Origin: a virus
Reading direction: 5' to 3' (one strand)
Length of the DNA stretch: 21,501 nt
Virus record (IMG/VR): IMGVR_UViG_3300044995_000370
Location: 1-21,501 of that record
Shown here one piece after another: positions 920 through 21,198 of the stretch. Each line of letters opens with the position of its first letter. The first letter of the stretch is position 1. The notes beneath the pieces were generated by a model. It made no database searches and had not been told where the DNA came from. It saw nothing but the letters and a program-made list of their open reading frames with translations. The position numbers and the translations under genes are program-made.

Positions 920-922
920 GCC

Positions 923-1201
923 ATGCACGAAGAGCGCGCCGAACACCTCCTGCTCGCCCTGCTCGATAGCCTGGCCGCGGCGCAACCCACGGCCATGAGC
1001 GAAGGCCTGCTGCACCATGCCATGAACCTGCGCCTTGCCAATCGCGGCCAGCCCCAGGCCCTGCTCAGCGAGTTCGAGCAGGCGCGCGACCTGGCCGAGC
1101 GCCGCCGCTGGACCGCCGGCGCCCGCGGCCCCACCGGGCGCGTGCGCTGGGCCCTCACCCCGGCCGGCGCGGCGGCCCTGGCCGACCTGGCCGCCCCCTG
1201 A
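923..1201 (+). CDS. Small winged-helix-like phage protein (gp26 position)
   Basis: A 92-residue protein. The sequence suggests three N-terminal helices followed by a short beta-hairpin-like stretch (residues about 70-82, with RVRWALT) and a final helix starting with TPAGAAAL, a pattern common in small winged-helix domains. It sits between the DUF2730-like gene and the small terminase, exactly where Mu-like phages carry an uncharacterised small gene. It could bind DNA in packaging or late regulation, but nothing in the sequence proves either. It lies 3 bases after the previous stop and 3 bases before the next start, indicating translational coupling. Confidence 0.5.
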   Translation: MHEERAEHLLLALLDSLAAAQPTAMSEGLLHHAMNLRLANRGQPQALLSEFEQARDLAERRRWTAGARGPTGRVRWALTPAGAAALADLAAP

Positions 1202-1204
1202 GCC

Positions 1205-1810
1205 ATGAAACTGCGCCTGAGCATCCCCAAAAAACGCGCGTACACGCGCACGCAGTTGCTGCGCGCCCCGCGCAAGCCCGCCCCGCACCGGCGCCCCTCG
1301 CCCTCGATGCAGCAACTCCGGGCCCTGCCCCGCGACGTGCTGGCCCGCCTCTTCGAGCTCACCAACGAGCTCAGCGCCCGCGACTGGCGCGCCCGCCTCG
1401 CCCAGGAGCACGGCATCCACCTCAGCTCCGACAGCCAGGTCACCACCTTCCGCGACTGGTGGTGGACCCAGCACAAGCTCGAGGAACGCAACCGGCGCGT
1501 CGAGCAATTCGAGGACTGGTTCAAAAGCCGCTATCCGGCCACCAGCCCGGAAGACCTGCGCGCCGCCGTGCTGGCCTTCAGCCTGGCCGAGGCGGCCCTC
1601 GAGGGCGACCGCCGCGGCGTGGTCCAGGTGGCCCGCACGCAGATCGCCGATGAATCCGAACGCCGCGCCCGTGAGGAATTCGAGTTCAACGCGGCCGAGG
1701 CGTGCCTCAAACACCTGGCCGCGCTGCGCGCCATCGCCGCCGACCCCACGCTGGACGAATCGGCCAAGCTGGCCGAAGTGCGCAAACGGCTCTTCGGCGC
1801 CGCCCCCTGA
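1205..1810 (+). CDS. Small terminase subunit, Mu gp27-like (DUF3486)
   Basis: A 201-residue protein likely to recognise phage DNA for packaging and hand it to the large terminase. The first 30 residues are strongly basic. Residues about 36-75 (QLRALPRDVLARLFELT and following) resemble the helix-turn-helix part of gp27 family proteins, in which a 'LP..V...L...L' segment precedes a recognition helix. Residues about 83-106 are Trp-rich and helical (DWWW, DWF), and the C-terminal half is all helical and acidic/basic, suitable for oligomerisation. Position is decisive: it lies just upstream of the large terminase with one small membrane gene between. Length fits the family (about 180-200). Confidence 0.65.
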   Translation: MKLRLSIPKKRAYTRTQLLRAPRKPAPHRRPSPSMQQLRALPRDVLARLFELTNELSARDWRARLAQEHGIHLSSDSQVTTFRDWWWTQHKLEERNRRVEQFEDWFKSRYPATSPEDLRAAVLAFSLAEAALEGDRRGVVQVARTQIADESERRAREEFEFNAAEACLKHLAALRAIAADPTLDESAKLAEVRKRLFGAAP

Positions 1811-1813
1811 CCC

Positions 1814-2173
1814 ATGAAACACGCCCTGCCCCTGGCCCCCCTGGCCGCCGCGCTGGGCGCGCGCCTGCGCGGCCGCAAGACTTACCTCATCGCCGCGCTC
1901 GGCCTGCTCTACCTCTTCGGCGGCGACCAGGGCTGGTGGCGCGTCTCCGCCGAGGGGCTCGCTCTCCTGAACCTGTTGGGCCTGGCGGCGCTGCGCCACG
2001 GCCTGGCGGCCCGGACGGGCAGCGAGGGAGAAAGTCGAGAGTCGAGGGACGAGGGTCGAGAGGCGAGGGACGAGGGGCGGGAGGCGAGAAGCGAGAAGCG
2101 AGAAGCGAGAATTGAGAAGCGAGGGGCGAAGGCGGCCTTGAATGCTCAGTGCTCGCTTCCCAATGCCCCCTAA
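1814..2173 (+). CDS. Holin-like small membrane protein with repeat-encoded tail
   Basis: A 119-residue protein. After a basic N-terminus, GRKTYLIAALGLLYLFGG (residues about 20-37) and SAEGLALLNLLGLAALRHG (about 46-63) form two hydrophobic segments separated by a short Trp-containing turn. The 'G(K/R)KTY' start and 'LRHG' end are typical of small holin-like or membrane proteins in phage late regions, so a lysis role is possible but not shown. From residue 75 to about 105 the protein is encoded by a 7-base repeat array and reads as a charged periodic peptide (SRDEGRE, ARDEGRE, ARSEKRE). The core probably ended near residue 70 before the repeat entered. The large terminase starts 4 bases after the stop. 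Confidence 0.55.
   Translation: MKHALPLAPLAAALGARLRGRKTYLIAALGLLYLFGGDQGWWRVSAEGLALLNLLGLAALRHGLAARTGSEGESRESRDEGREARDEGREARSEKREARIEKRGAKAALNAQCSLPNAP
2037..2127 (-). repeat. 7-base repeat array C, inverted, inside a gene
   Basis: Thirteen exact 7-base units. Read on the minus strand from 2127 they run GCCCCTC, GCTTCTC, AATTCTC, GCTTCTC three times, GCCTCCC, GCCCCTC, GTCCCTC, GCCTCTC, GACCCTC, GTCCCTC, GACTCTC twice. The general order (GCCC, then AATT/GCTT, then GCCC, then GACT) is the same as in arrays A and B, so this looks like an inverted copy of the same dispersed element. Just outside, the minus strand also shares GGCCGCC-TC with the left copies. It is translated as the C-terminus of the holin-like protein. 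Confidence 0.85.
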
Positions 2174-2176
2174 ACC

Positions 2177-3664
2177 ATGCCTGCCGCCGCGCCTCCCCCA
2201 GCCCGCCGCCCGGATCGCGACGGCCGCGAGGCCCTCATCCGCTTCCTGCCCTACCAGCGCGAGGCCTTCGCGGACCGTCATCACGGCGTCGCCATCTGGT
2301 TCTGGGGCCGCCAATGCCGCAAATCCAGCACCGGCGCGGCCTGGGCGGTGGACCGGCTGCTGACCCAGGTGCCCAAACATGGCCGCTGGCTGGTGACCGT
2401 GCTCTCGAACTCGAAGGACAACGGCGCCGAGTTCAACCTCAAAGTGGGCGAAATCTGCGAGCTGCTCGGCCAGGCCTATGAGGCCGCGGACCTCAGCCCC
2501 GACGGCCTCTACGAGCACATGGTGTACGAGACGCGCGTCCACGTGGGCGGCGGCGTGGGGCGCATCAAGGTCCTGGCCGCCAACCCCCGCACCGCGCGCG
2601 GCTTCTCCGGCGACCTCATCCTCGACGAATTCGCCTTCCACGAAGACAGCCAGCGCATCTGGGAAGCGGCGGAGCCGATCCTGGCGGCGCACCCGGAGTA
2701 TCTGTGCCGGATCATGAGCACGGGCAACGGCCGCCAGAACATGTTTTACCGCATGGTCACCAGCGGCCGGTACCCGGTCTCGAACATCCGCCGCTCCGAC
2801 GCCTGGCGCCAGGGCCTGCCGGTGTACCATCCGGTCACCCGCGAGCCCATCACCCCGGACCAGGCCCGCGAGCTGGCCCTGGACAAGCGCGCCTACGACC
2901 AGAATTACGAGAACGTCCTGAGCGATGAAAGCATGGCGCTGCTCACCTACGAGCTGATCGGCGCCGCCGAAGACCCGGACGTGGGCGAAATCTGCGAACA
3001 GGACTGGTCCGCCGCCGCGCTGGCGCGCCTCCACGCGGCCCGGGGCGACCTCTACGCCGGCGTGGACGTGGGCCGGAGCCGCGACCTCACCGTCCTCAGC
3101 GTCTTCGAGCGCCTGGGCGGGCAATGGCTCTGCCGCGCCCTGCTGCGCTGCGCCGGGATGCGCCTGCCCGAGCAACAGCGCCGCCTGCGCGCCGTCTGCG
3201 AAGCCCCGCGCTTCCATCGCGCGGCCATTGACATGACCGGCCTGGGCCTGGGGCTGGTCGAATACGCCCAGGAACAATTCGGGCGGGGCCGCATCCTGGG
3301 CGTCAATTTCGCCACCAGCGTGCCCCTCACCCGCCGCCTGGCCGCCAGCGGCCGCGCCGCCGACCGCGTGCGCGTGACCGAGGCGATGGCCACGGAACTG
3401 CTCGCCGCCTACGAAGACCGCCGCATCAAACACCCCGTGGACGAACTCTTGCGCGAAGACCTCCGCAAACCCGAGCGCCTCACCACCCCGGGCGGCCGGG
3501 TCAGCATCGCCGCCGCCGCCGACGCCTCCGGGCACGCGGACCATTTCTGGTCGTTCGCCCTGGCCATCGAGGCCGGGCACCTGGCCGCCGAAGGCGCCAT
3601 CCGCGACGCCGGCGGCATCACCCTGCAAACCCCGCGTTACCGCCCTCGCTGGTACTGGCGCTGA
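2177..3664 (+). CDS. Terminase large subunit, Mu gp28-like
   Basis: The packaging motor: an ATPase that drives DNA through the portal and a nuclease that cuts it. The 495 residues hold a Walker A-type loop GRQCRKSST (residues 44-52), Walker B LILDE (147-151), and a coupling motif STGNG (181-185). The C-terminal RNase H-like nuclease shows acidic residues in AGVDVGRSRD (294-303), IDMTGLG (351-357) and DASGHADHFW (449-458), the last typical of gp28 family ends. Length and motif order match Mu-like large terminases. The start at 2177 lies 4 bases after the previous stop and lacks a Shine-Dalgarno sequence. Followed by a short gap and the portal gene. Family recognised from motifs, not from a search. 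Confidence 0.88.
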   Translation: MPAAAPPPARRPDRDGREALIRFLPYQREAFADRHHGVAIWFWGRQCRKSSTGAAWAVDRLLTQVPKHGRWLVTVLSNSKDNGAEFNLKVGEICELLGQAYEAADLSPDGLYEHMVYETRVHVGGGVGRIKVLAANPRTARGFSGDLILDEFAFHEDSQRIWEAAEPILAAHPEYLCRIMSTGNGRQNMFYRMVTSGRYPVSNIRRSDAWRQGLPVYHPVTREPITPDQARELALDKRAYDQNYENVLSDESMALLTYELIGAAEDPDVGEICEQDWSAAALARLHAARGDLYAGVDVGRSRDLTVLSVFERLGGQWLCRALLRCAGMRLPEQQRRLRAVCEAPRFHRAAIDMTGLGLGLVEYAQEQFGRGRILGVNFATSVPLTRRLAASGRAADRVRVTEAMATELLAAYEDRRIKHPVDELLREDLRKPERLTTPGGRVSIAAAADASGHADHFWSFALAIEAGHLAAEGAIRDAGGITLQTPRYRPRWYWR

Positions 3665-3679
3665 CTCCGGCCCCCGCGC

Positions 3680-3802
3680 ATGACCCCGCTCCGCCCAGAA
3701 ACCGCCTGGAAACCCCGGAACCCCCGGCGCCGCTATCCGGACACTCGCCGCGCGCAAAAGCCGCTCCTGGCCAAACCGCGCAAAACCGCAGCGCCTTTCT
3801 GA
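3680..3802 (+). CDS. Small basic ORF between terminase and portal
   Basis: A 40-residue reading frame (ATG 3680, TGA 3800-3802) nearly fills the 150-base gap between terminase and portal. It is rich in Arg, Lys and Pro (KPRNPRRRYPDTRRAQK) with no acidic stretch or membrane segment. It follows the terminase stop by 15 bases and precedes the portal start by 12, as expected for a gene in this tightly packed block. No family is recognised and there is no Shine-Dalgarno sequence; a chance frame in GC-rich DNA is quite possible. Confidence 0.35.
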   Translation: MTPLRPETAWKPRNPRRRYPDTRRAQKPLLAKPRKTAAPF

Positions 3803-3814
3803 AAGACACTAGCC

Positions 3815-5569
3815 ATGTGGAACCCCTGGCCATTGACCGCCGCCGCCCGCCCTGCGCCCGAACCCCCCCTCAAGACCGTGGTCGTGCCCGCCGCGCGCGA
3901 CCGCTGGCTGGCCGCCGGCCTGACCGACCTCACCCCCGAGCAAATCTACAGCACCCTGCGCGGCGCGCTCTCCGGCGACCTGCTGCAGGTCTGGCGGCTG
4001 TTCGATGTCATGGAAGACACCTGGCCGCGCTTGTCGGTCAACCTGGCCAAGGTGCGCGCCGCGGTCAAACGCCACGACTGGACCCTCCAAGCCTGGGCGC
4101 CGCTCGGCAGCCGGCCCTCCGCGGAGGCCCTGCGGCGCGCGCGCATGCTCGGCGACGCCATCTGGTCCATGCGGCCCGCGCCCGACCTGGACGAGTTGGG
4201 CTGGGAGGGCACGCTCGATGCCCTGATGGACGCCTGGGGCAAGGGCGTGAGCGTGCTCGAGGTGGACTGGGAGCTGCGGGACACCGCCGAGGGCGCCTTC
4301 ATCGCCCCGCGCTGCACGCACTGGGTCCACCCGCGCTACTATGGCTGGCCCAGCGAGGACCGCCCCGAGGGCGACCGCCTCATGCTGCGCGCCAGCGAGG
4401 TGCTCCCCCGCAGCCAGGCGCTCGGGCCCGCGCCCCAAGACTGGCTGCCCTTCCCCCCGCGCAAATTCATCTTGGCCGTCTGCAAGGCCCGCACCGCCCA
4501 CGCCGCCGCGGCCGCGCGCCTGCGCCAGCTCGCCTGGTGGTGGTGCGTCTCGAACTTCTCCGGCCAGTGGCTGGTCAATTACGCCCAGCTCTTCGGCGTG
4601 CCGATCCGCTGGGCCACATACGACCCCGCCCGGCCCGACCTGCGCCCCGTGCTCGAACAAATGCTCGAGCGCATGGGCTCGGCCGGCTGGGCCGTGATGC
4701 CCGAGGGCACCAGCCTCACCCTCCACGCCGCGCCCGGCGGCGCCGCGGAAAACCCCCAACTGGCGCTGCTGCAACTGGCGGACCGCATTTGCGACGTGGC
4801 CATCCTGGGCCAGACGCTTACCACCGACGTGGGCGCCAGCGGCAGCCGCGCCCTTGGCGAGGTACACAAGGAAGTGCAGGATGAAATAGTGCAGGCCGCC
4901 ATTCGCTGGCTGGCCAGCACGCTCAACGAGCAGCTCCTGCCCTCTTGGTGCGAACTGAACTGGGGCGACCGCCGCGAATGCCCGTACTTCCTGGACCGCG
5001 CCCCGGCCGAGCGCGACACCCGCGCCACCGCCGAGACCTTCGAGGTGGTGCTCCGCTCCGGCGTGCCCATCCCGCGCGATTTCTACTACGAACAACTCGG
5101 CATCCCTCAACCCGAACCCGACCAGCCCGTCATCATGCCCCCGTCCACGGCCGTCCTCCCGCCCTCCCCCCTGCCGGACCCCGCCCAGGCCCGCCGCCCG
5201 GGCGCCCCCCCGGCCCCGCCCCCCGCCGCGCTCGGAGCGGCGTACTTCGCCCGGCAAATCCAAAACCAGGCCCTCGCGGACCACGTGCTCGAGGATTTGA
5301 CCGGCATCGAGGCCGCCTGGCTGGGCGGGGCGCGGCCCTGGCTGGCCCGCCTGGTCGAGGCCGCGCAGGACCCGAAGGTCAGCGATGCTGAATTCCTCGA
5401 ACTGCTCGAGCGCGCGCGCCGCAACGTCCCCTCCGAGCTGGCCCCCTTGCTCCACCCGGAAGCCGTCAGCGAAGCGCTGGAACGCGCCCTGGGCGCGGCC
5501 TGCGTGAATGGCGCCCTCGAGGGGTTCCGCCGCCGGCGCCTCCCCGCCCCCGGCGACCCGGCCGCATGA
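3815..5569 (+). CDS. Portal protein, Mu gp29-like (DUF935)
   Basis: The portal forms the ring at one capsid vertex through which DNA enters and leaves. The 584-residue protein matches DUF935: an N-terminal segment with DVMEDTWPRLSVNLAKVRAAV (about residues 64-84), a core with FSGQWLVNYAQLFGVPIRWA (about 248-267), and the family's well-conserved LGQTLTTD...SRALGEVH segment (about 331-350), then CPYFLDR and the 'IPRDFYYEQLGIPQP' region. After a Pro-rich linker (about 450-470) a helical C-terminal domain (about 475-575) resembles the usual DUF935 tail. Its stop overlaps the next start (ATGA). Mu has a separate F-like minor head gene after the portal; none is present here. Confidence 0.85.
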   Translation: MWNPWPLTAAARPAPEPPLKTVVVPAARDRWLAAGLTDLTPEQIYSTLRGALSGDLLQVWRLFDVMEDTWPRLSVNLAKVRAAVKRHDWTLQAWAPLGSRPSAEALRRARMLGDAIWSMRPAPDLDELGWEGTLDALMDAWGKGVSVLEVDWELRDTAEGAFIAPRCTHWVHPRYYGWPSEDRPEGDRLMLRASEVLPRSQALGPAPQDWLPFPPRKFILAVCKARTAHAAAAARLRQLAWWWCVSNFSGQWLVNYAQLFGVPIRWATYDPARPDLRPVLEQMLERMGSAGWAVMPEGTSLTLHAAPGGAAENPQLALLQLADRICDVAILGQTLTTDVGASGSRALGEVHKEVQDEIVQAAIRWLASTLNEQLLPSWCELNWGDRRECPYFLDRAPAERDTRATAETFEVVLRSGVPIPRDFYYEQLGIPQPEPDQPVIMPPSTAVLPPSPLPDPAQARRPGAPPAPPPAALGAAYFARQIQNQALADHVLEDLTGIEAAWLGGARPWLARLVEAAQDPKVSDAEFLELLERARRNVPSELAPLLHPEAVSEALERALGAACVNGALEGFRRRRLPAPGDPAA

Positions 5570-7131: not shown

Positions 7132-8052
7132 ATGGCCACCACCGGACCCCTCACCCTGCTCGACCTGGTCAAGCTCAACGCCGGCGCCGGCTTCGAGATT
7201 GTCAACGAAGTGGGCAAACTCAAACCCGAGCTATCGGTGCTGCCAGTGGACACGATCACGGGCACCGAGATGGAACTGACCGTCCTCAAGACCCTTCCCA
7301 CGGTCAGCGCCCGCAAGATCAACCAGGGCACCAGCGCCGCCAAAGGCGAATGGGAAAACCGCATCTACCAATGCGCCACCTACGACGTGCCGGTGGATGT
7401 GGACCGCGCCGTGTACGACCGCGCCAAGGACAAGGGCCGCCTGCTCATGCAGATGACCGAGCCGGTCATGGAAGCCACGCTCTTCGCCCTCTGCCGCCAA
7501 ATCTACTACGGCATCGGGGCCGATCCCCTGAGCTTCCCCGGCCTCCTGGCCCAAACCGAGACCGGCCCCACGCACGTCGTGGACGCCACCGCCACCAGCG
7601 CCAAGACCAGTGTCTGGTTCCTGGCCACGGGCGTGAACAAGGTCTGCTGGCTGATCGGCCAGGACGGCGCCGGCGCCCCCGCCATGCTCGATATCTGGCG
7701 GGACGTGGACCTGGTGGACGCCAACGGCAAGGTCTTCCCCGGCCTGCGCAACTACATCAAGGCCCGCCCCGGCTTGCGCGTGGCCAACAAAAACGCCGTC
7801 GTCCGCATCAAAAACATCGGCACCGCCAACGGCAAAACCCTCACCGACGCGCTCATGTTCCAGGCTCTGCGGCTCATGAACGACCTGGGCCAGGAGCCGA
7901 CCGCGATCTTCATGAACGCCCGCTCGCGCGAGCAACTGCGCGCCAGCCGCACCGCGACCAACGCCGCGGGCGCCCCCGCCCCGCTGCCCCGCGACTTCGA
8001 GGGCATCCCCATCTACGTGACCAACGCCATCTCGAACGACGAGACCGCCTAA
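7132..8052 (+). CDS. Major capsid protein
   Basis: A 306-residue protein forming the capsid shell. It follows the protease/scaffold gene and precedes a cement-like protein, the standard place for the major capsid gene. Residues 1-130 include TLLDLVKLNAG and 'ENRIYQCATYDVPVDVDRAVYDRA', and the middle has VWFLATGVNKVCWLIGQDG and an acidic loop, then LMFQALRLMNDLGQEPTAIFMNARSREQLRAS. This pattern resembles the capsid family of podophages such as BPP-1 (Bbp17-like) more than Mu gpT; that is recall, not a search. The C-terminal VTNAISNDETA is typical for capsid ends. No cysteine-rich or Ig-like decoration domain is seen. Confidence 0.75.
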   Translation: MATTGPLTLLDLVKLNAGAGFEIVNEVGKLKPELSVLPVDTITGTEMELTVLKTLPTVSARKINQGTSAAKGEWENRIYQCATYDVPVDVDRAVYDRAKDKGRLLMQMTEPVMEATLFALCRQIYYGIGADPLSFPGLLAQTETGPTHVVDATATSAKTSVWFLATGVNKVCWLIGQDGAGAPAMLDIWRDVDLVDANGKVFPGLRNYIKARPGLRVANKNAVVRIKNIGTANGKTLTDALMFQALRLMNDLGQEPTAIFMNARSREQLRASRTATNAAGAPAPLPRDFEGIPIYVTNAISNDETA

Positions 8053-10051: not shown

Positions 10052-10588
10052 ATGAACAACACCTCGCTCATCCTTGGCGCTCAACTCTGGTTCGCCCGCG
10101 AAGGCGAATCCTACACCCTGCCCGCCCCCGGCACCGTGGCCCGCGACAGCCTGCCCGGCGCCGCGGACACCGTGTGGGCCTATCTCGGCATCATCGGCGA
10201 ACTCTCGGTCGAGGGCGACGCCGAGGAGGTCGAGGTCTGGCGGCCCGCCCCCGGCCGCCTGGTGCTGGACGATGTGCTCCACACCAAGGGCGCGATCAAA
10301 TACAGCTTCACCTGCCGCCAGCTCGGCCCCAGCGGCCTCGAATTCCTCTTCCGCACCGTCAAGCTCACCCCCGGCTCGAACAGCTTCACGCCCCTGGCCG
10401 TGCCCCAGATCAAAGGCTGGCTCAAGGCTCAATGGTACGACCAAACCAACTCCCAGCGCCTCATCACCGACAACTGGGTGGTCCTCAAACCCAACGGCGC
10501 CCTCAAGGCCGACGCCCAGAGCCTGGCCGAGGTCCAGTTCGAGGCCCGGCTCCTCTTCAGCACGCTCAACCTGGGCGGCATCAGCTAA
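10052..10588 (+). CDS. Probable major tail tube protein
   Basis: A 178-residue, beta-rich protein. It starts with SLILGAQLWFAREGE, has an acidic segment (ELSVEGDAEEVEVWRPAPG), then alternating strands 'AIKYSFTCRQL...EFLFRTVKLTP', and ends in a strand-rich EVQFEARLLFS region. This matches the single-domain tail tube fold used by siphophages. No sheath-like protein accompanies it, so the tail is probably long and non-contractile. It lies directly after the terminator and two genes before the tail chaperone, the usual siphophage order. Confidence 0.5.
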   Translation: MNNTSLILGAQLWFAREGESYTLPAPGTVARDSLPGAADTVWAYLGIIGELSVEGDAEEVEVWRPAPGRLVLDDVLHTKGAIKYSFTCRQLGPSGLEFLFRTVKLTPGSNSFTPLAVPQIKGWLKAQWYDQTNSQRLITDNWVVLKPNGALKADAQSLAEVQFEARLLFSTLNLGGIS

Positions 10589-10600
10589 GCCCCACTCCCT

Positions 10601-11005
10601 ATGCCCGACGCCATCACCGTCCCCGAGCCCACCCTCCCCACCTGGGGCGGCCCGGCCGTCACCGTGGTCAAGGCCTTCAACGAAGACGTGCAGGCGACCG
10701 TCACCGCCGGATTGGCCGCCGGTCAAACGGCCTACGGCTACACCATGCAAGAAAATGACGTCGTGCTCGCCTTGACGCCCCACCCGCACGTGCACAGCGG
10801 CATCTACGTGGTCGGCGCCGCCAGCGGCTCGCGCCATCCGCAAGCGGACCAGACCGCCGAGTTCCCGCGCCACCTGCGCGTGCCGATCTCCGGGACCGGC
10901 CCCTTCGCCGGCCGCACCGCCCGCTACAGTGGCAAGGCCAACCCGGTCATCGGCACCGACGGCCTGCCATTCACCTTCGACCCCGTGCCCATCACGCCGC
11001 CATGA
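10601..11005 (+). CDS. Unrecognised tail-region protein
   Basis: A 134-residue protein without a family I can name. It is mixed beta and Pro/Gly-rich, with TVVKAFNEDVQATVTAGLAAGQTAYGYTMQ-like N-terminal half, a His-rich HPHVHSG turn (about residues 62-68) and an acidic-free C-terminus. It has no signal or membrane segment. Its stop overlaps the next start by the ATGA pattern (11002-11005), and it sits between the tube and chaperone genes, so it is probably a minor tail or tube-associated protein. Confidence 0.55.
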   Translation: MPDAITVPEPTLPTWGGPAVTVVKAFNEDVQATVTAGLAAGQTAYGYTMQENDVVLALTPHPHVHSGIYVVGAASGSRHPQADQTAEFPRHLRVPISGTGPFAGRTARYSGKANPVIGTDGLPFTFDPVPITPP

Positions 11006-11343
11006 TCGCCCTCAGCCTCGAACGTCACGACGGCGCCCTCGCGGACAACGTGACCGTGCGCGCGCTCAAGCTCGCGCAGTACGCGGAGGCCGGGGCGGCC
11101 CTCGAACGCGGCGATGAATTCCGGCTGGTCGAGCTGGCCTGCGACCGCCAGGCCGGCTGGGCGCTCACCCTGACCCCCGCCGCCTACGAGCAGGCCGCCG
11201 CCGCGGTCTATCAGGTGAACACCGCTTTTTTCGCCTGGTACGGCAGGCGGCAGAGCCTCAAGCAACTCGCGGCCCTGGCCCTGCAGCTCAACGGCTCACT
11301 CTCGACGCCCACGTCGCCCGCCTCGCCGCGTTCCTCGGCCTGA
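11002..11343 (+). CDS. Tail assembly chaperone, G-like product (unshifted)
   Basis: A 113-residue protein read without frameshifting. It lies directly before the tape measure gene, where siphophages encode the paired tail assembly chaperones (lambda G and GT). Residues 1-77 (MIALSLERHD to NTAFF) are the shared domain, with a helical core (VRALKLAQYAEAG, LTPAAYEQAAAAVYQ). The 36 residues after the slippery site (AWYGRRQ onward) are Ser/Pro-rich by the end and look like ordinary coding for about 20 residues. The start is set by the ATGA overlap with the previous gene. Confidence 0.6.
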   Translation: MIALSLERHDGALADNVTVRALKLAQYAEAGAALERGDEFRLVELACDRQAGWALTLTPAAYEQAAAAVYQVNTAFFAWYGRRQSLKQLAALALQLNGSLSTPTSPASPRSSA

Positions 11344-11516
11344 GCCTCCATGAAGCCCGGGAGCACAGCCTCGAAGACCTCGAAGCCCTGGCCGCCGCGC
11401 GCGCCCGGCTCGAAGCCGAACGCCTCCGCGCCCTGGCCTGCGCCCTCCGCGCCGCCTTCCATGCGGACCGCGCGGCCTTTGACCGCTTCCTGCGCGCCTG
11501 CGAGCCCTCCGAGTAG
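11002..11516 (+). CDS. GT-like tail chaperone fusion made by -1 frameshift
   Basis: A -1 shift at 11226-11232 joins residues 1-77 of the chaperone to a second frame that stays open to TAG at 11514-11516, giving about 171 residues. The -1 frame is protein-like: from about 11297 it reads LTLDAHVARLAAFLGLSL and continues as a long charged amphipathic helix region (LEDLEALAAARARLEAERLR) ending in FDRFLRACEPSE. The stretch between the site and stop has no ATG, GTG or TTG in the -1 frame, so independent initiation is unlikely. The tape measure starts 6 bases downstream. This arrangement is the classic G/GT system; the product is inferred. Confidence 0.7.
11226..11232 (+). promoter_or_regulatory. 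-1 ribosomal slippery site T TTT TTC
   Basis: The heptamer TTTTTTC lies in the chaperone frame as GCT TTT TTC, which is the X XXY YYZ form, allowing both tRNAs to re-pair one base back. A 5-bp hairpin (GCCTG 11233-11237 with CAGGC 11244-11248) follows immediately, nearly too close to the site; a weaker structure farther on is possible. Confidence 0.7.
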
Positions 11517-11522: not shown

Positions 11523-13895
11523 ATGCCCGAACTGAAAGTCCGCATCATCACCGAGGCCCAGACGGCCGGCCTGCGGCAGATGCAGGCCGCCCTCGAGCAG
11601 TTTCGCGGCTCCCTCGGCGGCTTGCAGGGCATGTTGGCCAGCCTGCGCGGGACCCTCACCGCCGCCTTCGGCGGTCTGGCCCTCACCGCCCTCACCCGCG
11701 CCGCCGTGGCCGGCGCCCAGCAAAGCGCCGTGGCCCAGGCGCAACTCCGCCAGGCCCTGCTCTCCACCGGCCAGGCCTCGGAGCAGGCCGCCGCCGCGCT
11801 CGTCCGGCAGGCCCAGGCCCTCGAACGCCTCACCGGCCAGGACGATGCCACCGTCCACGCCGTCCAGCGCATCCTCTTATCCCTGGGCGCCACCATCGAG
11901 CAAACCCAGCGCCTCACCCCGCTGGTGCTCGACCTGGCCGCCGCGATGGGCACCGATGCCACCACCGCCGCGCGCCTGCTCGGCCAGGCCCTCGATGGCC
12001 AGGCGACCGGCCTGGCCCGGTACAACATCACCGCCCGCAATTTCGACACGCTCACCGATCAATTGACCCGCGCCTTCGGCGGGCAGGCCCGCGCCCTCCA
12101 GGCCGCCCGCGGGCCGCTCGGGGAACTGGCCATCCTGCAGGACCAGGCCCTCAAAGGCCTGGGCCAGGCCCTCCTCCAAACCGCCGCGCCCGCGCTGCGC
12201 TCGCTCAACGGCGCCCTCGAGGCCCTGGCCCGCACCATCGCCGCGCCGGGCTTCGCCGAAGGCCTGCGCGCCACGTGGCACCTGCTCGGTTCGGCTGCCC
12301 TCACGGCGGGCATCCTCGCCCTGGGCACGGCCCTGGGCCGCGTCTATCCACAACTTGCCGCTTTCCTCAGCCTCTGGCGCCAATTCGGCGCCGCCTCCCT
12401 CGCCGCCGCCTTCACTGAGGCCCAACTCGCCGCCGCCGGCCTGGCCGCCCGCCTGGCCGCCCTGGTCGCGGCCGTGGACACCCTCCGCAATGCCTGGGGC
12501 GCCTGGCAGGCCGAAATGGCCGCCCGCGGCGCCCGCGCCGCCGCCGGCGACACGTTGACCGAGTCGCGCCGGGTCCTCGAGCGCGAGATTGCCGCCGCCG
12601 AGGCCGCCCAACGCCTCTCCACCGCGCGCGCTGCCGAGATGCGCGCCCGCCTGGACACGGCCTTTGCCGGCCGCCAGGAGACGGTGCAACGCTCGGTCAG
12701 CGCCGGCACCGGCGGCGCCACGCTCCTGCCCCCCCAGACCACCCGGGTGCGCGACCTGGCCGCCGAACACGAGGCCTTGACCGCGATCAGCCGCGAGCTG
12801 CGGCAGATCCACACCACCCAGGACGAAATCGAGCGCCGCCAACTGGGCGAATGGCTCACCGGCCAGATGACCCGCGGCGTTGGCGCCCTCGAGGAGGCCT
12901 TCCGGCGCGCCGGCGAGCGCGTCCTGGCCCTGGCCGAATGGCGCCGCGCCCTGATCGAACAAGTGCGCGGGTTCAGCGAGATCGCCGAACGCATGGACCA
13001 GGCCGAGGCCGAGCGCGAGGCCACCCGTCAGCGGGCCCTGGCCGAATACTACCGCGGCGTGAGCCAAATCCTAGAAATAGAAGAGCGCCGCGAGGAAACC
13101 GCCCGACGCCGCGCCGAGGCGGAGGCGACGCTGCAATCCTTCCACGGCCAGCTCGGCCTCCAACTGCAACAGGAATTCGGCGTGGTGGTGGACGCGCAGG
13201 GGCGCATCCAAAACCTCGTCGCCGCCGCCCGCGATGCCGCCAGCACCATCGCCCAGACCATCGGCAACGCCTTCCGCGTCATCGGCGACCAGATCACCAA
13301 ACTCATCCTTGGCACCGTGACCTGGGGGCAGGCCCTCGCCAACATCGGCCGCACCATCCTCGCCCAACTCGTCGCCTCCATCGTGAATTTCTTCGTCACC
13401 CTGGCCGTGCGCGCCATGCTCACGGCCCTGTTGGGCACCGCCATCACCGAGGCCGCCGCCGCCTCCGCCGCCAGCGCCTGGGCCGGCCCGGCCATCCTCG
13501 CCAGCACCGCGACCTACGGCACGGCTCCCGCCGTCGGCACCGCCGCCCTGGGCGCCGCCCTGGCCGCCGCCCCCGCCATCGCCGCCGCCGCCTCCTTCGC
13601 CGGTGGCTTCGCCCGCGGCGGCTTGGTGACCGGCCCGGGCGGCCCCGCCGAGGACCGCGTGCTGGCCCGGCTCAGCCCGGGCGAATTCGTGATCCCGGCT
13701 ACCGCCGTGCGCCGCGCCGGCCTGCCGGCGCTCGAGGCCATCCGCCAGGGCCTGCCGCCCTGGCCCCTGCGCGCCCCCGCGCGCGAGGAATCCCAGGAAT
13801 CGGCGCCCCTGCGCGTGGTGATCGTGGACCAGCGGCGCGAAGCCGAGGAACTCCTGCGCGATCCCCGCTGGCGCAGCGCCCTGGTGAACCTCTGA
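11523..13895 (+). CDS. Tail tape measure protein
   Basis: A 790-residue protein that sets tail length and travels with DNA on injection. Residues 1-330 begin with an assembly domain (LKVRIITEAQTAGLRQMQAALEQFRGSLG) and an Ala-rich helical region; residues about 340-560 are charged helix with coiled-coil spacing (REVRGFSEIAERMDQAEAEREATRQR-type). Residues about 590-695 are hydrophobic (ANIGRTILAQLVASIVNFF), and a final domain has GGLVTGPGGPAEDRVLARL then SPGEFVIPATAVRR (about 700-735), the frequent end motif of tape measures. At about 0.15 nm per residue this implies a tail near 120 nm. It is the largest early tail gene, and the chaperones directly precede it. Confidence 0.88.
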   Translation: MPELKVRIITEAQTAGLRQMQAALEQFRGSLGGLQGMLASLRGTLTAAFGGLALTALTRAAVAGAQQSAVAQAQLRQALLSTGQASEQAAAALVRQAQALERLTGQDDATVHAVQRILLSLGATIEQTQRLTPLVLDLAAAMGTDATTAARLLGQALDGQATGLARYNITARNFDTLTDQLTRAFGGQARALQAARGPLGELAILQDQALKGLGQALLQTAAPALRSLNGALEALARTIAAPGFAEGLRATWHLLGSAALTAGILALGTALGRVYPQLAAFLSLWRQFGAASLAAAFTEAQLAAAGLAARLAALVAAVDTLRNAWGAWQAEMAARGARAAAGDTLTESRRVLEREIAAAEAAQRLSTARAAEMRARLDTAFAGRQETVQRSVSAGTGGATLLPPQTTRVRDLAAEHEALTAISRELRQIHTTQDEIERRQLGEWLTGQMTRGVGALEEAFRRAGERVLALAEWRRALIEQVRGFSEIAERMDQAEAEREATRQRALAEYYRGVSQILEIEERREETARRRAEAEATLQSFHGQLGLQLQQEFGVVVDAQGRIQNLVAAARDAASTIAQTIGNAFRVIGDQITKLILGTVTWGQALANIGRTILAQLVASIVNFFVTLAVRAMLTALLGTAITEAAAASAASAWAGPAILASTATYGTAPAVGTAALGAALAAAPAIAAAASFAGGFARGGLVTGPGGPAEDRVLARLSPGEFVIPATAVRRAGLPALEAIRQGLPPWPLRAPAREESQESAPLRVVIVDQRREAEELLRDPRWRSALVNL

Positions 13896-14077: not shown

Positions 14078-15016
14078 ATGGCGCTGCAACTTTACGAGCA
14101 CACTGACACCGGAGCACCTGCGGCCAACGCGCGCGTGATAAGCGTGCTGCGCGCGTGTCTGGTCAACGGCTACGGTTCAAAAGCTGCGGCCGGATGGTCG
14201 GAGGATTTCACCGGTGCAAACAAAGCGGTGTTCAAGATGCCCGCGACAGCCCCACGGCGACTTCACTTACGACTTGAAGTGTACAACAGCAACGCAACAC
14301 GCTGGAACGGTTACGTGGACATGTCGGACATAGACACCGGCACTTTCAGGTTCTTCAACGGTGACTATAGCTGCTACGACCAGACCACAGCCACAGGTTG
14401 GAAAGTGCTCGCGGATGACAAGACGGTTATTTGGATTCCACGTCATACTGATAATACTTGGCGGTTTTTCTATTTCGGTTACTTGCGAGATGAAGCGCCG
14501 GGTGACTTAAATCACGCTTGGTGTGGAGGCAATCAAGGTCTGGCGGGCTATCCGTCCACGGTAGGTGCATTCTGGCCGATACATTCGAGCTACAACCCGT
14601 GGGGCAATGCTGTCTATGGGCAACTGCTCGGGCCTTACGGCGAGTCGCTGGGTTCTACGGTCTATGCCATTGGGACGTCGATGATGGGAACGACCGGAGA
14701 CAGCCAGAGAAACAATCAAGAAAACACACGCCTTCCAGGGGCTCCCCCCAGCAATGGCGTCTATCAATTCGCGCGAATGCCAATTACCGAAGCGGGCGAC
14801 AGTTACACGCCTTGTGTGCTGCGCGGCAACTTGCGCGGACTAGTATGGCCTTGTCACCGCTACTCGACCTTAACTAACGGTTTGACCATCTCCGGTGTCG
14901 GCCAATACAGCGGGTTTACTATTAAGATTTTGAAAGAAGTGAAAGCCTGTGACAACAGCTACACGACATCCGAAAGCAATACGTTTGCTTTGGGTCTGGT
15001 AATCGGAGACACTTGA
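14078..15016 (+). CDS. Imported virion structural protein (HTDTGAP type)
   Basis: A 312-residue protein with ordinary start. Residues about 3-15 (LQLYEHTDTGAPA) and 27-41 (CLVNGYGSKAAAGWS) match a conserved N-terminal pattern of virion proteins found in many phages, usually in the tail region. The middle is rich in aromatic residues, Asn and Gly (YDQTTATGWKVLAD, WRFFYFGYLRDEA), with the look of a beta-rich surface protein. The DNA differs from its neighbours: one hand-counted 60-base line is 48% GC, compared with more than 70% in adjacent genes. It uses AGA, TTA and AAT codons and has a Shine-Dalgarno sequence. A role in host recognition is an inference. Confidence 0.7.
   Translation: MALQLYEHTDTGAPAANARVISVLRACLVNGYGSKAAAGWSEDFTGANKAVFKMPATAPRRLHLRLEVYNSNATRWNGYVDMSDIDTGTFRFFNGDYSCYDQTTATGWKVLADDKTVIWIPRHTDNTWRFFYFGYLRDEAPGDLNHAWCGGNQGLAGYPSTVGAFWPIHSSYNPWGNAVYGQLLGPYGESLGSTVYAIGTSMMGTTGDSQRNNQENTRLPGAPPSNGVYQFARMPITEAGDSYTPCVLRGNLRGLVWPCHRYSTLTNGLTISGVGQYSGFTIKILKEVKACDNSYTTSESNTFALGLVIGDT
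15005..15008 (+). promoter_or_regulatory. Shine-Dalgarno GGAG of the hybrid gene
   Basis: GGAG lies 9 bases before the ATG at 15018, overlapping the end of the imported gene. It shows that the two genes were probably a transcriptional pair where they came from. Confidence 0.6.
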
Positions 15017-15446: not shown

Positions 15447-15715
15447 GCCGGCCCGTCCCACGCCCCGATTGGCGCGCCCTGGCCGCCGAACTGGCGGCCG
15501 CCCTTGAACGGCTCGACCGCGCCTATGTGAGCGACAATCTGGACCCCTCGACGCACTCGCCGCGGCGGCCCGATTGGATCGCGGGGCCGCTCGCCCGGTT
15601 CCGGGCCGCGCGGGCGGCCGACCGCCGGGGCCGCGCGGGTCCATCGTTTTCCGCAAACGCCGACGACACGCGCCGGCGGCGCCTTGAGCCATGCCTGATT
15701 TCAGCCAGCAGTTGA
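15443..15715 (+). CDS. Small charged unknown protein
   Basis: A 90-residue protein that starts within the preceding stop (ATGAG) and overlaps the next gene by 25 bases. Residues about 8-30 form a helix (DWRALAAELAAALERLDRAY); the rest is Arg/Pro/Ala-rich and probably disordered. A family is not recognised. The tight overlap on the 5' side supports translation, but its C-terminus lies in the start of the DUF2163-type gene, so the 3' part may be under double constraint or it may not be a true gene. Confidence 0.4.
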   Translation: MSRPVPRPDWRALAAELAAALERLDRAYVSDNLDPSTHSPRRPDWIAGPLARFRAARAADRRGRAGPSFSANADDTRRRRLEPCLISASS

Positions 15716-17823
15716 GCGGCGCGCCCGTCTGGGGCCGGCGGGTGAGTTTCACCTTCTGGCTGCACGGCGCGCCGGTGGTCGAGCTGGACCCGCCCAATCC
15801 CCTGGCCGGGTACGTGCTCCTCGCTGTGCCGCCGGATTGGCAGCGCGCCCTCGAGCTGCGCCTGGAACTGCCCGTGCCCGTCACCGCCGGCCTGACCGCG
15901 CGCGAGACCCGCGCGCCGCGCGCGGAGACCCTGCGCGCCGAGCTGCTCTATGACGCGGTGCTGGGCGGACGCGCCTGGAATACCTTGCGCGACCAGCTCC
16001 AACACCTGGCCGACCAGGCGGTCATCCTGCCCGCCTGGCCCCTGGCCGTGCCCGGGGCCGCATTCAATCCGGCCGTGCATTGTTCGGGCGGCATTCTGTG
16101 CGGCTGGAAGGATGACGGCTCGGGCCTGACGGCGCTGCCCGCCGAGCAATTTGAGGCGTCCGCCCACGATTGGGTGGCCCCCGGGCTCATGGGGACCCTC
16201 GAGATCGAACGGGCCAGCCTGATCGGGGCGGACGCCACGCGCCTCCGCCTCCGCCTCACCGAGGACAGCCCGGCCGAATACGCGCTGCGGCCGCCCGCGC
16301 TCCCCTGGGACACCGGCCCGGCGCTCAACGACACGACCACCCCGCGCCTCTTCCCGCTGGCGCTGGAATTCGGCCGCCGCCTCGAGCCGGAATTGCCCGA
16401 GGTGGAAATCACCCGCCGCACCTACGGCCCCGGCCGCCGCCGCGCCCTCGAGTACTATCCGCAATGGCCCCGGCGCGGCCTGGCCGCCGAGGTGGTGCTC
16501 TCCTCGCCCGTCGAGCTGGCCCGCCTGATCGCCTGGTGGCAAGCCGCCGCCGGCCCGGCCGAGCCGCACTACGTGCCCTGGCCGCCCCAGGTCACGCACC
16601 TGGCGGCGGATGCGGCCAGCGGGGCCACGCAACTGACCCTGGCCGATCCCGAGGCCCTGGGCGAGTTCCGCTGGCTGGCGCTGCTGCGCCCGGAGCGCAC
16701 GGAGATCGTCCGGGTGCTCTCGCTCTCCGGGCCCACGGCCACACTCAACGACCCCCTCGCCCAAGCCTGGCCCGCCGCCTGGACGGTCGTGGCGCTGGCC
16801 CTCCTGGCGCGGCATCGGGATACCGAACTGCGCCTCCGGTGCGAGGCCCCGGGCCTGGCCCGGGCGGCGCTGGCCTGGACCGAAGTCCCCGAGGAATACC
16901 AGCCCGCCAGCGTCGAGACGCGCCAGGTCACCCTCGGCCGCGCGCCGGTCACGGCCTGGCTCTACACCTTCACGCGCGACGCCTTCGGGCAGCAGCAGGC
17001 CGAGCGCTTCACCAGCTACGAGCGCGATTTGACCGTGGCCGGCATGGATTACCGCGCGCACCCCATCGCGCACACGGAGTTTCGCGCCTCGCTCGAGATG
17101 CAGAGCGACGAGATCACCCTGCGCGCGCGGCGGCTCGAATGTTTCGAGGCCTTTTTGCCCGGGCGCTTGACCCACCGGTTGTACCTCGAGATCGCCGAAT
17201 GCACCGTCACCGGCGGCGGCCAGGGCGCGAATGCGCAGCCGCGCTGGCGCGGCGAGGTGGTGCGGGTCGAGTTCGAGGGGCCGTTTGCCCAGGTGACCTG
17301 CCGCGGGCAATGGGCCCTGCTGGACCGCCCCGTGCCGCGCTTGCTCATCCAACCGCAGTGCAATCACACCGTTTTCGACGCCCGCTGCGGCTTGAACCGG
17401 CTGGACTGGACCTTCAGCGCCACCTGGGTCAGCGCGTCCGGCGCCACGGTCACGGCCGGCAACTGGTCGCGCGCCGGCGGCCTGCCGGCCGGGTTCGGGG
17501 CCGCCCATTACTTCGCCCTGGGCTACCTCGAACGCCCCTCCGGCGAGCGCTTGCCCATCCTCGACAGCACCGCGCTCGCCTCGGGGCAAATCACGCTCAC
17601 GCTCGACCGCGCTCCGGCCTCGGCATGGAGCAGCGCCGAGCCGCTCCAAGTGGTGCCCGGGTGCGACGGCCGCCGGGAAACCTGCCAGGCCTGGCACGCC
17701 ACCAATAATCCCGAGGGCAAATTCGACAACTGGGCGCGCTTCGGCGGCTTCCCCTGGGTGCCCGCCAAGAACCCCGCCTTCACGCCGCCCAAACGCACCA
17801 ATCTCCCCCAGGGCAAAAAATGA
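15691..17823 (+). CDS. Tail hub/baseplate protein, DUF2163 + BR0599 type
   Basis: A 710-residue minor tail protein expected to form part of the tail tip hub, as in gene transfer agents and D3112-like siphophages. Residues about 1-400 form a domain I do not recognise, with hydrophobic strands and two Cys (131, 137). Residues about 425-555 (FTRDAFGQQQAERFTSYERDL-like start, 'RARRLECFEAFLPG', 'WRGEVVRVEFEGPFAQVTC') fit DUF2163. Residues about 555-690 carry the BR0599 signature: C557, C566, C658, C665 and FGGFPWVP with NP (684-694). The next gene overlaps the stop (ATGA) and encodes a peptidase, the order typical of this module. Confidence 0.75.
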   Translation: MPDFSQQLSGAPVWGRRVSFTFWLHGAPVVELDPPNPLAGYVLLAVPPDWQRALELRLELPVPVTAGLTARETRAPRAETLRAELLYDAVLGGRAWNTLRDQLQHLADQAVILPAWPLAVPGAAFNPAVHCSGGILCGWKDDGSGLTALPAEQFEASAHDWVAPGLMGTLEIERASLIGADATRLRLRLTEDSPAEYALRPPALPWDTGPALNDTTTPRLFPLALEFGRRLEPELPEVEITRRTYGPGRRRALEYYPQWPRRGLAAEVVLSSPVELARLIAWWQAAAGPAEPHYVPWPPQVTHLAADAASGATQLTLADPEALGEFRWLALLRPERTEIVRVLSLSGPTATLNDPLAQAWPAAWTVVALALLARHRDTELRLRCEAPGLARAALAWTEVPEEYQPASVETRQVTLGRAPVTAWLYTFTRDAFGQQQAERFTSYERDLTVAGMDYRAHPIAHTEFRASLEMQSDEITLRARRLECFEAFLPGRLTHRLYLEIAECTVTGGGQGANAQPRWRGEVVRVEFEGPFAQVTCRGQWALLDRPVPRLLIQPQCNHTVFDARCGLNRLDWTFSATWVSASGATVTAGNWSRAGGLPAGFGAAHYFALGYLERPSGERLPILDSTALASGQITLTLDRAPASAWSSAEPLQVVPGCDGRRETCQAWHATNNPEGKFDNWARFGGFPWVPAKNPAFTPPKRTNLPQGKK

Positions 17824-18335
17824 ACCCGACCGCTCCCGCCGCTCCCGCCGCTCCCCGGTGCGACCCGGAGGCGCTCGCCCGCGCCGCCGAGGCCTGGGCC
17901 GGCACGCCCTTTGCCCCCAATTCCTGCCGTCGCGGCGCCGGCGTGTGTTGTCACCAGCTCCTGGGCGCGATCTACCGCGAAGCGGGATGGCTGCCGGACC
18001 TGCCGCCCTTGCCGCCCGGCTCCCCGGCGCACGCCCGCGCCGGCCAATCCAGCCCGATGCTCGATTGGCTGCTGGGCCCGGGCCTGCGCTGGTTCCTCCC
18101 CCTGGCCCGCCCCGACGATTTACGTGCCGGCGACCTCTTGCTGGTCCGCCACGGTCACGTGCCGCACCACCTGGCCCTCGTGCTCCCGGAGGGCCGGGTG
18201 GTGCATGTGTCTCCCCATCACGGCGTCGTCCTCCTGCCCGTCTTGCCCCGGCGATGGCGCGCCGCCATCTCCCACGCCTTCCGACCGCGCGCGGCCGTCC
18301 CGGAGGGCGTCCACCTGGCCGCCGCCCTGGCATGA
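17820..18335 (+). CDS. NlpC/P60-like tail peptidase
   Basis: A 171-residue protein likely to cut peptidoglycan during entry, located at the tail tip. The pattern GVCCHQLLGAIYREAG (residues 41-56) is the Cys motif of NlpC/P60 enzymes, where 'G.(D/C)C..L....YREAG' carries the nucleophile, here C44. 'PDDLRAGDLLLVR' (98-110) and HHLALVL (116-122) give the His (H117) and VVHVS the third position. The segment between is shorter than in the longer family members, as in gene transfer agent and siphophage versions. It starts on the hub gene's stop; the N-terminus has a small Pro/Ala repeat. The peptidase substrate is not predictable. Confidence 0.78.
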   Translation: MNPTAPAAPAAPRCDPEALARAAEAWAGTPFAPNSCRRGAGVCCHQLLGAIYREAGWLPDLPPLPPGSPAHARAGQSSPMLDWLLGPGLRWFLPLARPDDLRAGDLLLVRHGHVPHHLALVLPEGRVVHVSPHHGVVLLPVLPRRWRAAISHAFRPRAAVPEGVHLAAALA

Positions 18336-18523
18336 GCAAATCCAGCATCAAACCCGAAACGCTGGACGAGACCACGCTCGAAGCCGAGGAGCTGGCCACG
18401 CACCAGGAGAATGTGCCCCTGCCCTGGTTGGCCGGCACCCGCAAGATCGCCGTGCGCTGGCTCGATAACGCCCTCGACCAGCGCACCGAGCAAGCCCCCG
18501 ACGACCGCCCGCAGAAGAAGTGA
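18332..18523 (+). CDS. Small 63-residue unknown protein
   Basis: A 63-residue protein overlapping the peptidase stop (ATGA) and ending 5 bases before the likely start of the tail-tip gene. It is acidic at the start (ETLDETTLEAEELATHQ), then PWLAGTRKIAVRWLDNALDQ, and a charged end; there is no signal or membrane segment. I do not recognise a family. Its place in the chain suggests a minor tail or assembly function. Confidence 0.6.
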   Translation: MSKSSIKPETLDETTLEAEELATHQENVPLPWLAGTRKIAVRWLDNALDQRTEQAPDDRPQKK

Positions 18524-18528
18524 CCCCT

Positions 18529-21051
18529 ATGGGCAAATCCGAGTCCGGCGCCAAATCCTACAATTACTACGGCACCCTCGTGGCCGCCATCTGCGCCGGG
18601 CCCGTGGACCAGTTGCACGCGGTGATTGTGGACGGCAAGTCCATCGTGGACTGCGATCCGCCGGTCACCCGCGGCGCCCAGCCCTACACCGTGCTGACCG
18701 GGTTGGTCGAAGCCAAATACCTCCATCGGCGCGGCCAAATGCTCATCTACTGGGGCACCGACGACCAGACGCCGCCCGCCCAATTCACCAGCGGCGTCAT
18801 CGCCCATCACCCCAACTACCGCGGCGTCGCCCTGTGGATCGCCAGCGGTCTGCTCTTCGGCCGCGAACGCACCACCGCGCCCAACGTCGAGATCATCGTC
18901 AGCCGCAAGCCCGTGGCGCCGGTCTCCCTCGTGCCGGCCGCCCACAACACCCTCGAGGACGGCCAGTGTAACCCGGTCGCCGCCCTGGCCGAGCTGATGA
19001 CCCATTGGCACGGCTTGGGCCTGCCGGAAAGCGCCTTTGCCGCGGCCGATTGGCAGGCCGCCGCGGCCTGGTGCGCTGCCAACCCGGCGCGCTATTATTG
19101 CTCGCCGTTGCTCCATGTACAGGGCGAGGCCCGGCGTGCCTGTCGCGAGCTGCTCGCGCTCTTTGACGGCGCCCTGTACTGGACCGCGGACGGCAAGATC
19201 GGACTGCGCTTGCTCAAGCCGGGCGACGCCCCGCCCGACTTGCCCACGCTCGACGCCCCCTTGCTGGCCGAGCGCGCCCGCATCGAATGCGGCGGATGGC
19301 CCGAGGTCCCCACCAGCCTGACCCTCCGCTACCCGGACCGCGCGGCGCAGTACAAATCGCGCGAAATCCGCCTCGCCCATCCCCTGGCCTGGCGCGCCCG
19401 CGACGGCGTCCCCCGGGAAGAGGCTCAGGAAACCCCGCATGTCACCCGCGCCGATCAGGCGGCCGCCCTGGCCGCCGATTGGCTCCGCCGCGCCCACCGC
19501 CCGGCCGGCCGCATCCAAATCTCCGTCCGCCGCCCCCACGCGCTCCACCTGACCCCCGGGAGCAAATGCTGGGTGGATATTGACCCGGAGCCGGGCGGGA
19601 CCGGTCTCGCGCAACTCTGCCTCATCCAGGAGCGCCGCGAGGAAGACCAGGGGCCGGTCAAATTGAACTTGATCCCGGACACCACCGTCGCCGCAGTCCC
19701 CTACGCCCCGCAATTCCTTTCCCCGCCGCCCCAGGCGCCCTCTTGCCCCGGCCTCGACGCCGCCCGCGCCCTCGCCATCCCGTTGTCCCCCAAATTCACC
19801 GTCCGCCCCAGCATCGCCATCCTCGCCCCGCGACCGGACGAATCCGTGATCGGCTTCCGCGCCTTCTTCGCCCTCGATACGGACCACGACGGAAACCTCG
19901 ACGAGGAAGACTGGGCGGACCTGGGCGCGAGCATCGGCTTCGCCTGCCGGCTCACCCTGGATACGGATGCCGCCGAAGACGCCACCACCCTCCGTCTCAC
20001 CCTCACCGACGGACCGGACAGCCCCGATGCCTACCTGGCCGGGCGCCTGCCCGATAACGCGCGCGACGCGGAACAGGATCGGTTGCTGCTGATCCTGGCC
20101 AACCGCGATGCCCAAGGCAGGGTCAAGATCACCAGCGGCCTGCCGGAGCTGGAAATCCTCAGCGTCGTCACCCGTACCGCCGTGGACGCGGACACCCACG
20201 ACTACACCTGCTTGCGTGGGCGCTGGGGCACCACGCCGCGATCCTGGACGGCCGCCCAACCGCCCGCCGCCTATATCCTGCCCGCCGACAACCTCAAAGC
20301 CTGGACACACCCCCTGCTGACCGAGCTGATGATGACCGGGGGCGCCGGCTACTTGCGGCTGGTGGCCTACAATGCCCTGGCGGAAGACACCGGCCCGCGC
20401 CCGCAAATCAGCTTCCTTTACCCGACGGCCTACAACGTAGCCCCGGTGATCGTCTGGACCAGCCCCAGCGACGGCCCCCCGGACAACGGCCAGGGCACCG
20501 CGGACCCGACCACCGGCCTCTATACCCCGAACCTCACGATCACCGACTCGAACGGCGATCTGGTGCAGGTGCGCATCGTCAGCCAGCTCAGCAACGGGTC
20601 CGGTTACACCGAGCGCCACAGAGTGGACCTCGCGCCCGCCTCCTCCTACACCTTCTCGGCCGCCCTGACCTTCGCCCTGGGCAGCCACAGCCTCATTGTC
20701 ACCGCCCGGGACCGGGCCGGCTACACCACCGTCTCCCAGCGCACCATCGCGCGCACCGCGCCCGGAGGCATTGCCCCGCCCACCTTCAATCCCCCCTCGG
20801 GGGCCGACTTCACCAGCCAGCGATTGGTCACCCTCACGGTATCCGCTCCGGCTGACCAGGTCCAATGGGCCGTCACCCCCTTGGGATCGAACGAGCCCAC
20901 GTCCTGGCCCAATACCTCCTCCCCGGGCACCACCCAGGTCCAGATCACCCTCACCAGCACCAAGCGCATCTGGGCCCGCGGCCGTGACAGCACCACCAGC
21001 ACCACCGGCCCCTCCGCCTACGCAGACTACGAGAAACTCGACAACCGCTGA
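18529..21051 (+). CDS. Tail tip/central fibre protein (J-like) with modular C-terminus
   Basis: About 840 residues. The start at 18529 is preferred to the upstream GTG at 18520 because MGKSESGAKSYNYYGTLVAAICAGP is a typical beginning for phage tail-tip proteins ('..AKSYNYYG....GPVD'). Residues 1-370 form the tip domain. An EF-hand-like loop, DTDHDGNLDEED (about residues 450-461), has the spacing D-x-D-x-D-G. Residues about 640-745 look like an Ig-like domain ('SLIVTARDRAGYTT'), and about 750-835 like the chitobiase/hexosaminidase C-terminal domain (PPTFNPPSGADFTSQ, IWARGRDST). The role in host contact is inferred. It is the last gene of the phage block. Confidence 0.75.
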   Translation: MGKSESGAKSYNYYGTLVAAICAGPVDQLHAVIVDGKSIVDCDPPVTRGAQPYTVLTGLVEAKYLHRRGQMLIYWGTDDQTPPAQFTSGVIAHHPNYRGVALWIASGLLFGRERTTAPNVEIIVSRKPVAPVSLVPAAHNTLEDGQCNPVAALAELMTHWHGLGLPESAFAAADWQAAAAWCAANPARYYCSPLLHVQGEARRACRELLALFDGALYWTADGKIGLRLLKPGDAPPDLPTLDAPLLAERARIECGGWPEVPTSLTLRYPDRAAQYKSREIRLAHPLAWRARDGVPREEAQETPHVTRADQAAALAADWLRRAHRPAGRIQISVRRPHALHLTPGSKCWVDIDPEPGGTGLAQLCLIQERREEDQGPVKLNLIPDTTVAAVPYAPQFLSPPPQAPSCPGLDAARALAIPLSPKFTVRPSIAILAPRPDESVIGFRAFFALDTDHDGNLDEEDWADLGASIGFACRLTLDTDAAEDATTLRLTLTDGPDSPDAYLAGRLPDNARDAEQDRLLLILANRDAQGRVKITSGLPELEILSVVTRTAVDADTHDYTCLRGRWGTTPRSWTAAQPPAAYILPADNLKAWTHPLLTELMMTGGAGYLRLVAYNALAEDTGPRPQISFLYPTAYNVAPVIVWTSPSDGPPDNGQGTADPTTGLYTPNLTITDSNGDLVQVRIVSQLSNGSGYTERHRVDLAPASSYTFSAALTFALGSHSLIVTARDRAGYTTVSQRTIARTAPGGIAPPTFNPPSGADFTSQRLVTLTVSAPADQVQWAVTPLGSNEPTSWPNTSSPGTTQVQITLTSTKRIWARGRDSTTSTTGPSAYADYEKLDNR

Positions 21052-21065
21052 CCCGGCGGCAAAGC

Positions 21066-21086
21066 GGCGGCCGCAGTGACGCCGCC
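21066..21086 (+). terminator. Possible weak transcript-end hairpin
   Basis: GGCGGC pairs with GCCGCC around a 9-base loop, 14 bases after the tail-tip stop. Only GC-rich sequence follows; the T run is about 38 bases farther on, so intrinsic termination is not clear. Confidence 0.25.
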
Positions 21087-21198
21087 CCGCCGCCGCCACA
21101 TCGCGGGCCAGATTAGCGAGCTGTTTTTTTGTGAGTGGGGCTGCCCCCCCCAGCCTGCCAATCAATGCCCCCTGCCCGAATCGGTCCGCTGACCGTGT

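Follow-up and report, generated by a model that had tools for sequence, protein, structure and literature searches.

We find that positions 11002–11516 of a 21.5 kb virus record (21,501 nucleotides, the whole stretch that was analysed, hereafter the window) very probably hold a gene for a tail assembly chaperone whose translation includes a programmed −1 ribosomal frameshift, resembling the G/GT system of phage lambda. The original prediction had placed a tail chaperone fusion here, produced by a −1 shift at T TTT TTC, and the heptamers and −1 frames of related loci now support it. The majority of ribosomes would read 11002–11343 to give a 113-aa chaperone. A minority would slip back by one base on the heptamer through tandem slippage of two Phe tRNAs and would continue in the −1 frame to 11516, giving a fusion of 171 aa (77 + 94) in which chaperone residues 1–77 would be joined through a linker of about 22 residues to a helical T-like domain. 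Both the slippage and its rate are inferred.

The virus that carries the locus has a Mu-like head module, in which the portal was recognised by PF06074 (E 1.2e-74), and its tail module includes a tape measure gene. All features of the locus lie on the plus strand. The zero-frame gene, gpG-like and 113 aa long, runs from 11002 to its stop codon TGA at 11341–11343. The slippery heptamer T TTT TTC occupies 11226–11232 in the phase GC-T TTT TTC, with TTT at 11227 and TTC at 11230 as zero-frame codons. The −1 frame is without a stop from 11118 to 11513, has no ATG, GTG or TTG in that interval, and closes with TAG at 11514–11516; counted from the heptamer, the extension (11232–11516) comprises 94 codons (11232–11513) and this stop. 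The ATG of the gene for the tail length tape measure protein (11523–13895; matched to PHROG tape measure families, best E 2.3e-9) follows directly at 11523. The end of the chaperone gene, the phase of the heptamer, the open −1 frame without a usual start codon and the tape measure gene right behind it were all as originally described, and standard ORF calling does miss this gene part, its frame having no ATG, GTG or TTG. Between slip and zero-frame stop lie 108 nt (11233–11340) that stop counts and synonymous changes mark as dual-coded: here the zero frame holds the last helix of the chaperone and a Ser/Pro/Thr tail, and the −1 frame holds the linker and the start of the T-like domain. Alignment of −1 products with those of the relatives and L064, together with a codon-usage change point at 11296, places this helical domain at 11298–11513 (TLDAHVARLAAFLGLSLHEAREHSLEDLEAL...). 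The predicted junction peptide is ...NTAFFRLVR..., and a −1 frame peptide within 11232–11297 is LVRQAAEPQATR.

The zero-frame protein matched PHROG 1442 (tail assembly chaperone) at E 1.1e-5, a family matched at E ≤ 0.01 by only three of 22 members of the chaperone family described here. Its AlphaFold2 model, of good confidence (pLDDT 84.5), shows helices after a beta hairpin, with the final helix at residues 74–98, and the slip position falls on residues 76–77, at the start of this last predicted helix. A viral fold search with the zero-frame protein gave weak matches, several phage tail chaperones among them and none with E < 0.04, and searches of Pfam and PDB, by sequence and by fold, returned no significant match. 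Judging by its sequence, the domain encoded in the −1 frame is helical, conserved and without a start codon of its own, and the predicted fusion has the chaperone core followed by the linker and the T-like domain, which together stand where the chaperone has its last helix.

A near twin of the window, IMGVR_UViG_3300045136_000873 (99.5% identity over 10.3 kb), shares its heptamer and frames; it makes an assembly error unlikely but carries no evolutionary information. The protein at 14078–15016 is only 92% identical between the two viruses, against 99–100% for the neighbouring tail and head proteins, and is perhaps a host-contact protein under diversification. A first search of 388 genomes from the phylum of an Akkermansia genome (Verrucomicrobiota) yielded three relatives of 28–30% identity, and profile searches then found the family in 25 of the 373 genomes in one order, as well as in a viral contig (L034). 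The resulting alignment contained 30 zero-frame proteins, almost all of them encoded at loci in Verrucomicrobiota genomes; we read these loci as prophages on account of the tape measure-like gene that comes next. When the chaperone, tape measure, capsid and portal proteins were each searched against viral contigs, the near twin was the only match; in a phage collection, tblastn returned nothing for the chaperone, for the tape measure protein or for the L024 chaperone, and no chaperone relative was detectable in the portal relatives L006–L021. The best phage-collection matches of the portal (3815–5569) and the major head protein (7132–8052) were to Akkermansia phage Chantilly (30% and 28% identity, respectively), hinting at a Verrucomicrobiota host for the virus.

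In 23 of the 30 aligned loci a canonical in-phase X XXY YYZ heptamer lies within the same alignment columns, 109–113, in one of the forms A AAT TTC/TTT, T TTT TTC, C CCT TTT/TTG or T TTC CCT. The original prediction had looked to homologues for a conserved TTTTTTC; what is kept is the position, with the type of heptamer exchanged, and the exact sequence recurs in L034, a locus about 30% identical to the window. Three further relatives carry near-canonical heptamers, C AAT TTT in L040 and L041 and G CCT TTT in L046, and L043 and L045 have C CCT ATY (CGC CCT ATT/ATC) at the slip position despite a clear −1 T-like domain. The remaining two loci are L064, a natural in-frame fusion, and L055, which was considered as a frameshift member and rejected since the T-like domain is absent. 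The 2794 codons of 22 representative ORFs contain a single further in-phase heptamer. Given the residues A-F-F and the codon usage of the window, in which GCT makes up 3% of Ala codons and TTT 15% of Phe codons, the heptamer would arise by chance with P = 0.0049. The product of such probabilities over 16 loci, with amino acids fixed and codons drawn from local usage, is ~1e-21, a figure that is illustrative and not a strict P value, as the 16 loci share ancestry and are not fully independent. The alignment indicates that the slippery pattern stays at a fixed place while the heptamer sequence changes. With about 23 slippery sites of differing sequence at one protein position, the family offers a means of testing which heptamers non-model bacteria slip on.

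The relatives also show where the −1 frame begins to be kept open. In the 1591 codons upstream of the heptamer, 22 loci together contain 61 stops in the −1 frame and 56 in the +1 frame; in the 1137 codons between heptamer and zero-frame stop the counts are 0 and 42, respectively. In L046, L049, L061, L039, L034, L045, L053 and L048 a −1 frame stop lies 3–15 nt upstream of the heptamer, and translation must therefore enter at or after it. Conservation of the −1 frame in related phages, on which the original prediction had staked its case, is borne out by profile: HMMs built from the −1 products of the other groups recognise the loci held out. The −1 ORF of the window ranked first of 351 (E 5.5e-6; next 0.18), and the −1 ORF ranked first among the six-frame ORFs of every locus tested (for L064, the fused ORF), with the exception of L049, in which the top match is a neighbouring frame and the domain looks damaged. 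In L049 the T-like domain appears broken up, probably through indels, with intact sequence on either side; L061, a close copy in the same genome, has it intact. Synonymous differences drop after the slip site in three close clades (0.363 to 0.174, 0.136 to 0.041 and 0.541 to 0.335); a fourth clade (L050/L062), with too few sites, shows no such suppression. In the fusion of L064, homology to the chaperone is left at the slip position, and the linker and T-like domain follow without the zero-frame helix. This locus lies in genome G422, on contig C11 (101530–126180), where three related chaperone loci (L064, L050 and L062) sit inside 25 kb, two with a T TTC CCT frameshift and one as the in-frame fusion of both parts. 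Among prophage copies in the same genome (L026/L060 versus L024/L036), the overlap of one copy has about 60 nt extra, containing two short palindromes and with the −1 frame open throughout.

Within the window alone the case is ambiguous, and codon usage alone argues against the heptamer. In a change-point analysis trained on the other genes of the window, the frame switch was best placed at 11296, a switch at 11233 was 65.7 bits worse, and the −1 frame codons of 11233–11297 were poor. Taken by itself this would make the heptamer a coincidence, a reading that the relatives overturned. The original prediction that a protein can be read from about 11297 thus holds for codon usage but not for the extent of the fused part, which begins at 11232 with the linker. 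The codon signal misleads because the overlap is dual-coded, with a conserved helix in the zero frame and, up to the T-like domain that starts near 11298, only a linker in the −1 frame; over the 108 nt that follow the slip, codon choice is dominated by the zero frame. Across so long an overlap, detecting the frame from codon usage can put a frameshift site in the wrong place, in this case 60–70 nt off.

The same change point is what would be expected if the frame changed near 11290–11300, by an unrecognised slip or a fixed indel, with T TTT TTC being coincidental, and the extension of zero-frame homology to the relatives as far as residue 98 would also agree with this. However, the relatives have no shared slippery motif there, their −1 frame is stop-free from the heptamer onward and so also in the stretch preceding such a change (22 loci), the position of the heptamer is conserved while its sequence changes, and L064 passes from the slip position straight to the linker and T-like domain. 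We therefore regard a change at this later point as very unlikely. Less probable again is an independent gene in the −1 frame with a non-standard start, or entry into this frame through termination followed by re-initiation. Some relatives do contain ATG, GTG or TTG in this frame, but these possible starts are not conserved and often fall inside the T-like domain; a start codon of its own downstream of the heptamer was looked for and is absent from the −1 frame of both the window and L062, and the conserved domain of the window begins about 40 nt before the zero-frame stop. The run of six T in the window and L034 would suit transcriptional rather than ribosomal slippage, yet the relatives have AAATTT, CCCTTT or TTTCCC at this place, which form no long homopolymer and fit tandem tRNA slippage, leaving transcriptional slippage with only the slightest chance of being correct. 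Finally, an identical frame pattern would result from a one-base difference, whether an error of sequencing or assembly or the breakage of the gene, but the near twin reads identically and some 28 other loci have the same −1 arrangement, so that this explanation is of negligible probability.

Frameshifts of the lambda kind are often, though not always, accompanied by an SD-like sequence or a downstream structure that stimulates the slip. Upstream of the heptamer in the window lies a weak Shine-Dalgarno-like AGGTGA (11213–11218; duplex with the anti-SD of −3.8 kcal/mol, rank 0.28 within the gene), a possible but not convincing stimulator here; strong SD-like sequences precede the slip site in L034, L030, L050, L062, L053 and L058. 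Folding of the strand placed a 6-bp hairpin immediately 3′ of the heptamer (11232–11249), the spacing of which is too short for a classical stimulator, and the z-score for a stimulatory RNA structure after the window heptamer was not significant. Downstream hairpins with z near −2 are found in L037, L042 and L039.

Two further features of the window lie away from the chaperone locus. Heptad-type tandem repeats (TTCACGC, CTCGCCC and CGAGAGG) occur at 321–429 and 2022–2134, outside structural genes or at their ends. The minus strand contains very long antisense ORFs at 407–3757 and 15523–21297 (1116 and 1924 aa), which most likely arise as a side effect of codon usage at high G+C.

The −1 frameshift mechanism itself is already well known, and in systems of the lambda kind the fusion is produced at a low, fixed ratio and tail assembly requires it. 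In lambda, gpG and gpGT share the G part, which binds the tape measure protein, and the T part has the tail tube protein as its partner (PMC5009743). By analogy, the part common to both products of the window may bind the tape measure protein and the T-like part may recruit the tail tube protein, for which the product of 10052–10588 is a candidate. The two systems have in common one gene placed before the tape measure gene, an in-phase X XXY YYZ heptamer with a −1 shift, and a zero-frame chaperone made alongside a fusion whose C-terminal part is a T domain; the searches run gave no match in sequence to lambda proteins. They differ in that the lambda heptamer, G GGA AAG, lies 15 nt before the stop of G compared to 108 nt in the window, and in that almost the whole of G is retained in the lambda fusion whereas that of the window would replace the last predicted helix (residues 74–98). 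The E/E+E′ system of P2 shares the gene order ahead of the tape measure gene and has a nearly identical heptamer (T TTT TTG), but its overlap is 18 nt rather than 108 nt, and P2 is a myophage with no sequence relation seen. Predicted −1 frameshift G/G-T genes also stand beside the tape measure gene in the Burkholderia phages AH2, KL1 and BcepNazgul and in Xylella phage Sano (PMC3483164). The heptamers are A AAA AAG in AH2 and G GGA AAC in KL1, the latter immediately before the stop (PMC3483164), and a Sano protein gave a weak fold match to the window chaperone, at E 0.3 only.

Reported mean distances from slip site to stop are 26 nt for SEA-PHAGES and 36 nt for the 28 phages of Xu and colleagues (PMC10274946); the distance is 108 nt in the window and 96–249 nt in the relatives with a T-like domain. 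A slip site near the end of the zero-frame gene, a usual although not strictly defining feature, is thus absent in the window. The chaperone family and its unusually long overlap appear to be undescribed, although long overlaps may occur in individual phages that are already known. Across this Verrucomicrobiota phage group, a part of a tail gene that ordinary ORF calling misses is recovered. Set against the known systems, we lean towards the view that these loci constitute a distinct, undescribed sub-type of chaperone frameshift across Verrucomicrobiota prophages, in which the ribosome would slip at the start of the last helix, 96–249 nt before the stop, the two products would share only the core and have a swapped C-terminus, a long stretch would be dual-coded, and heptamers would interchange at a fixed place.
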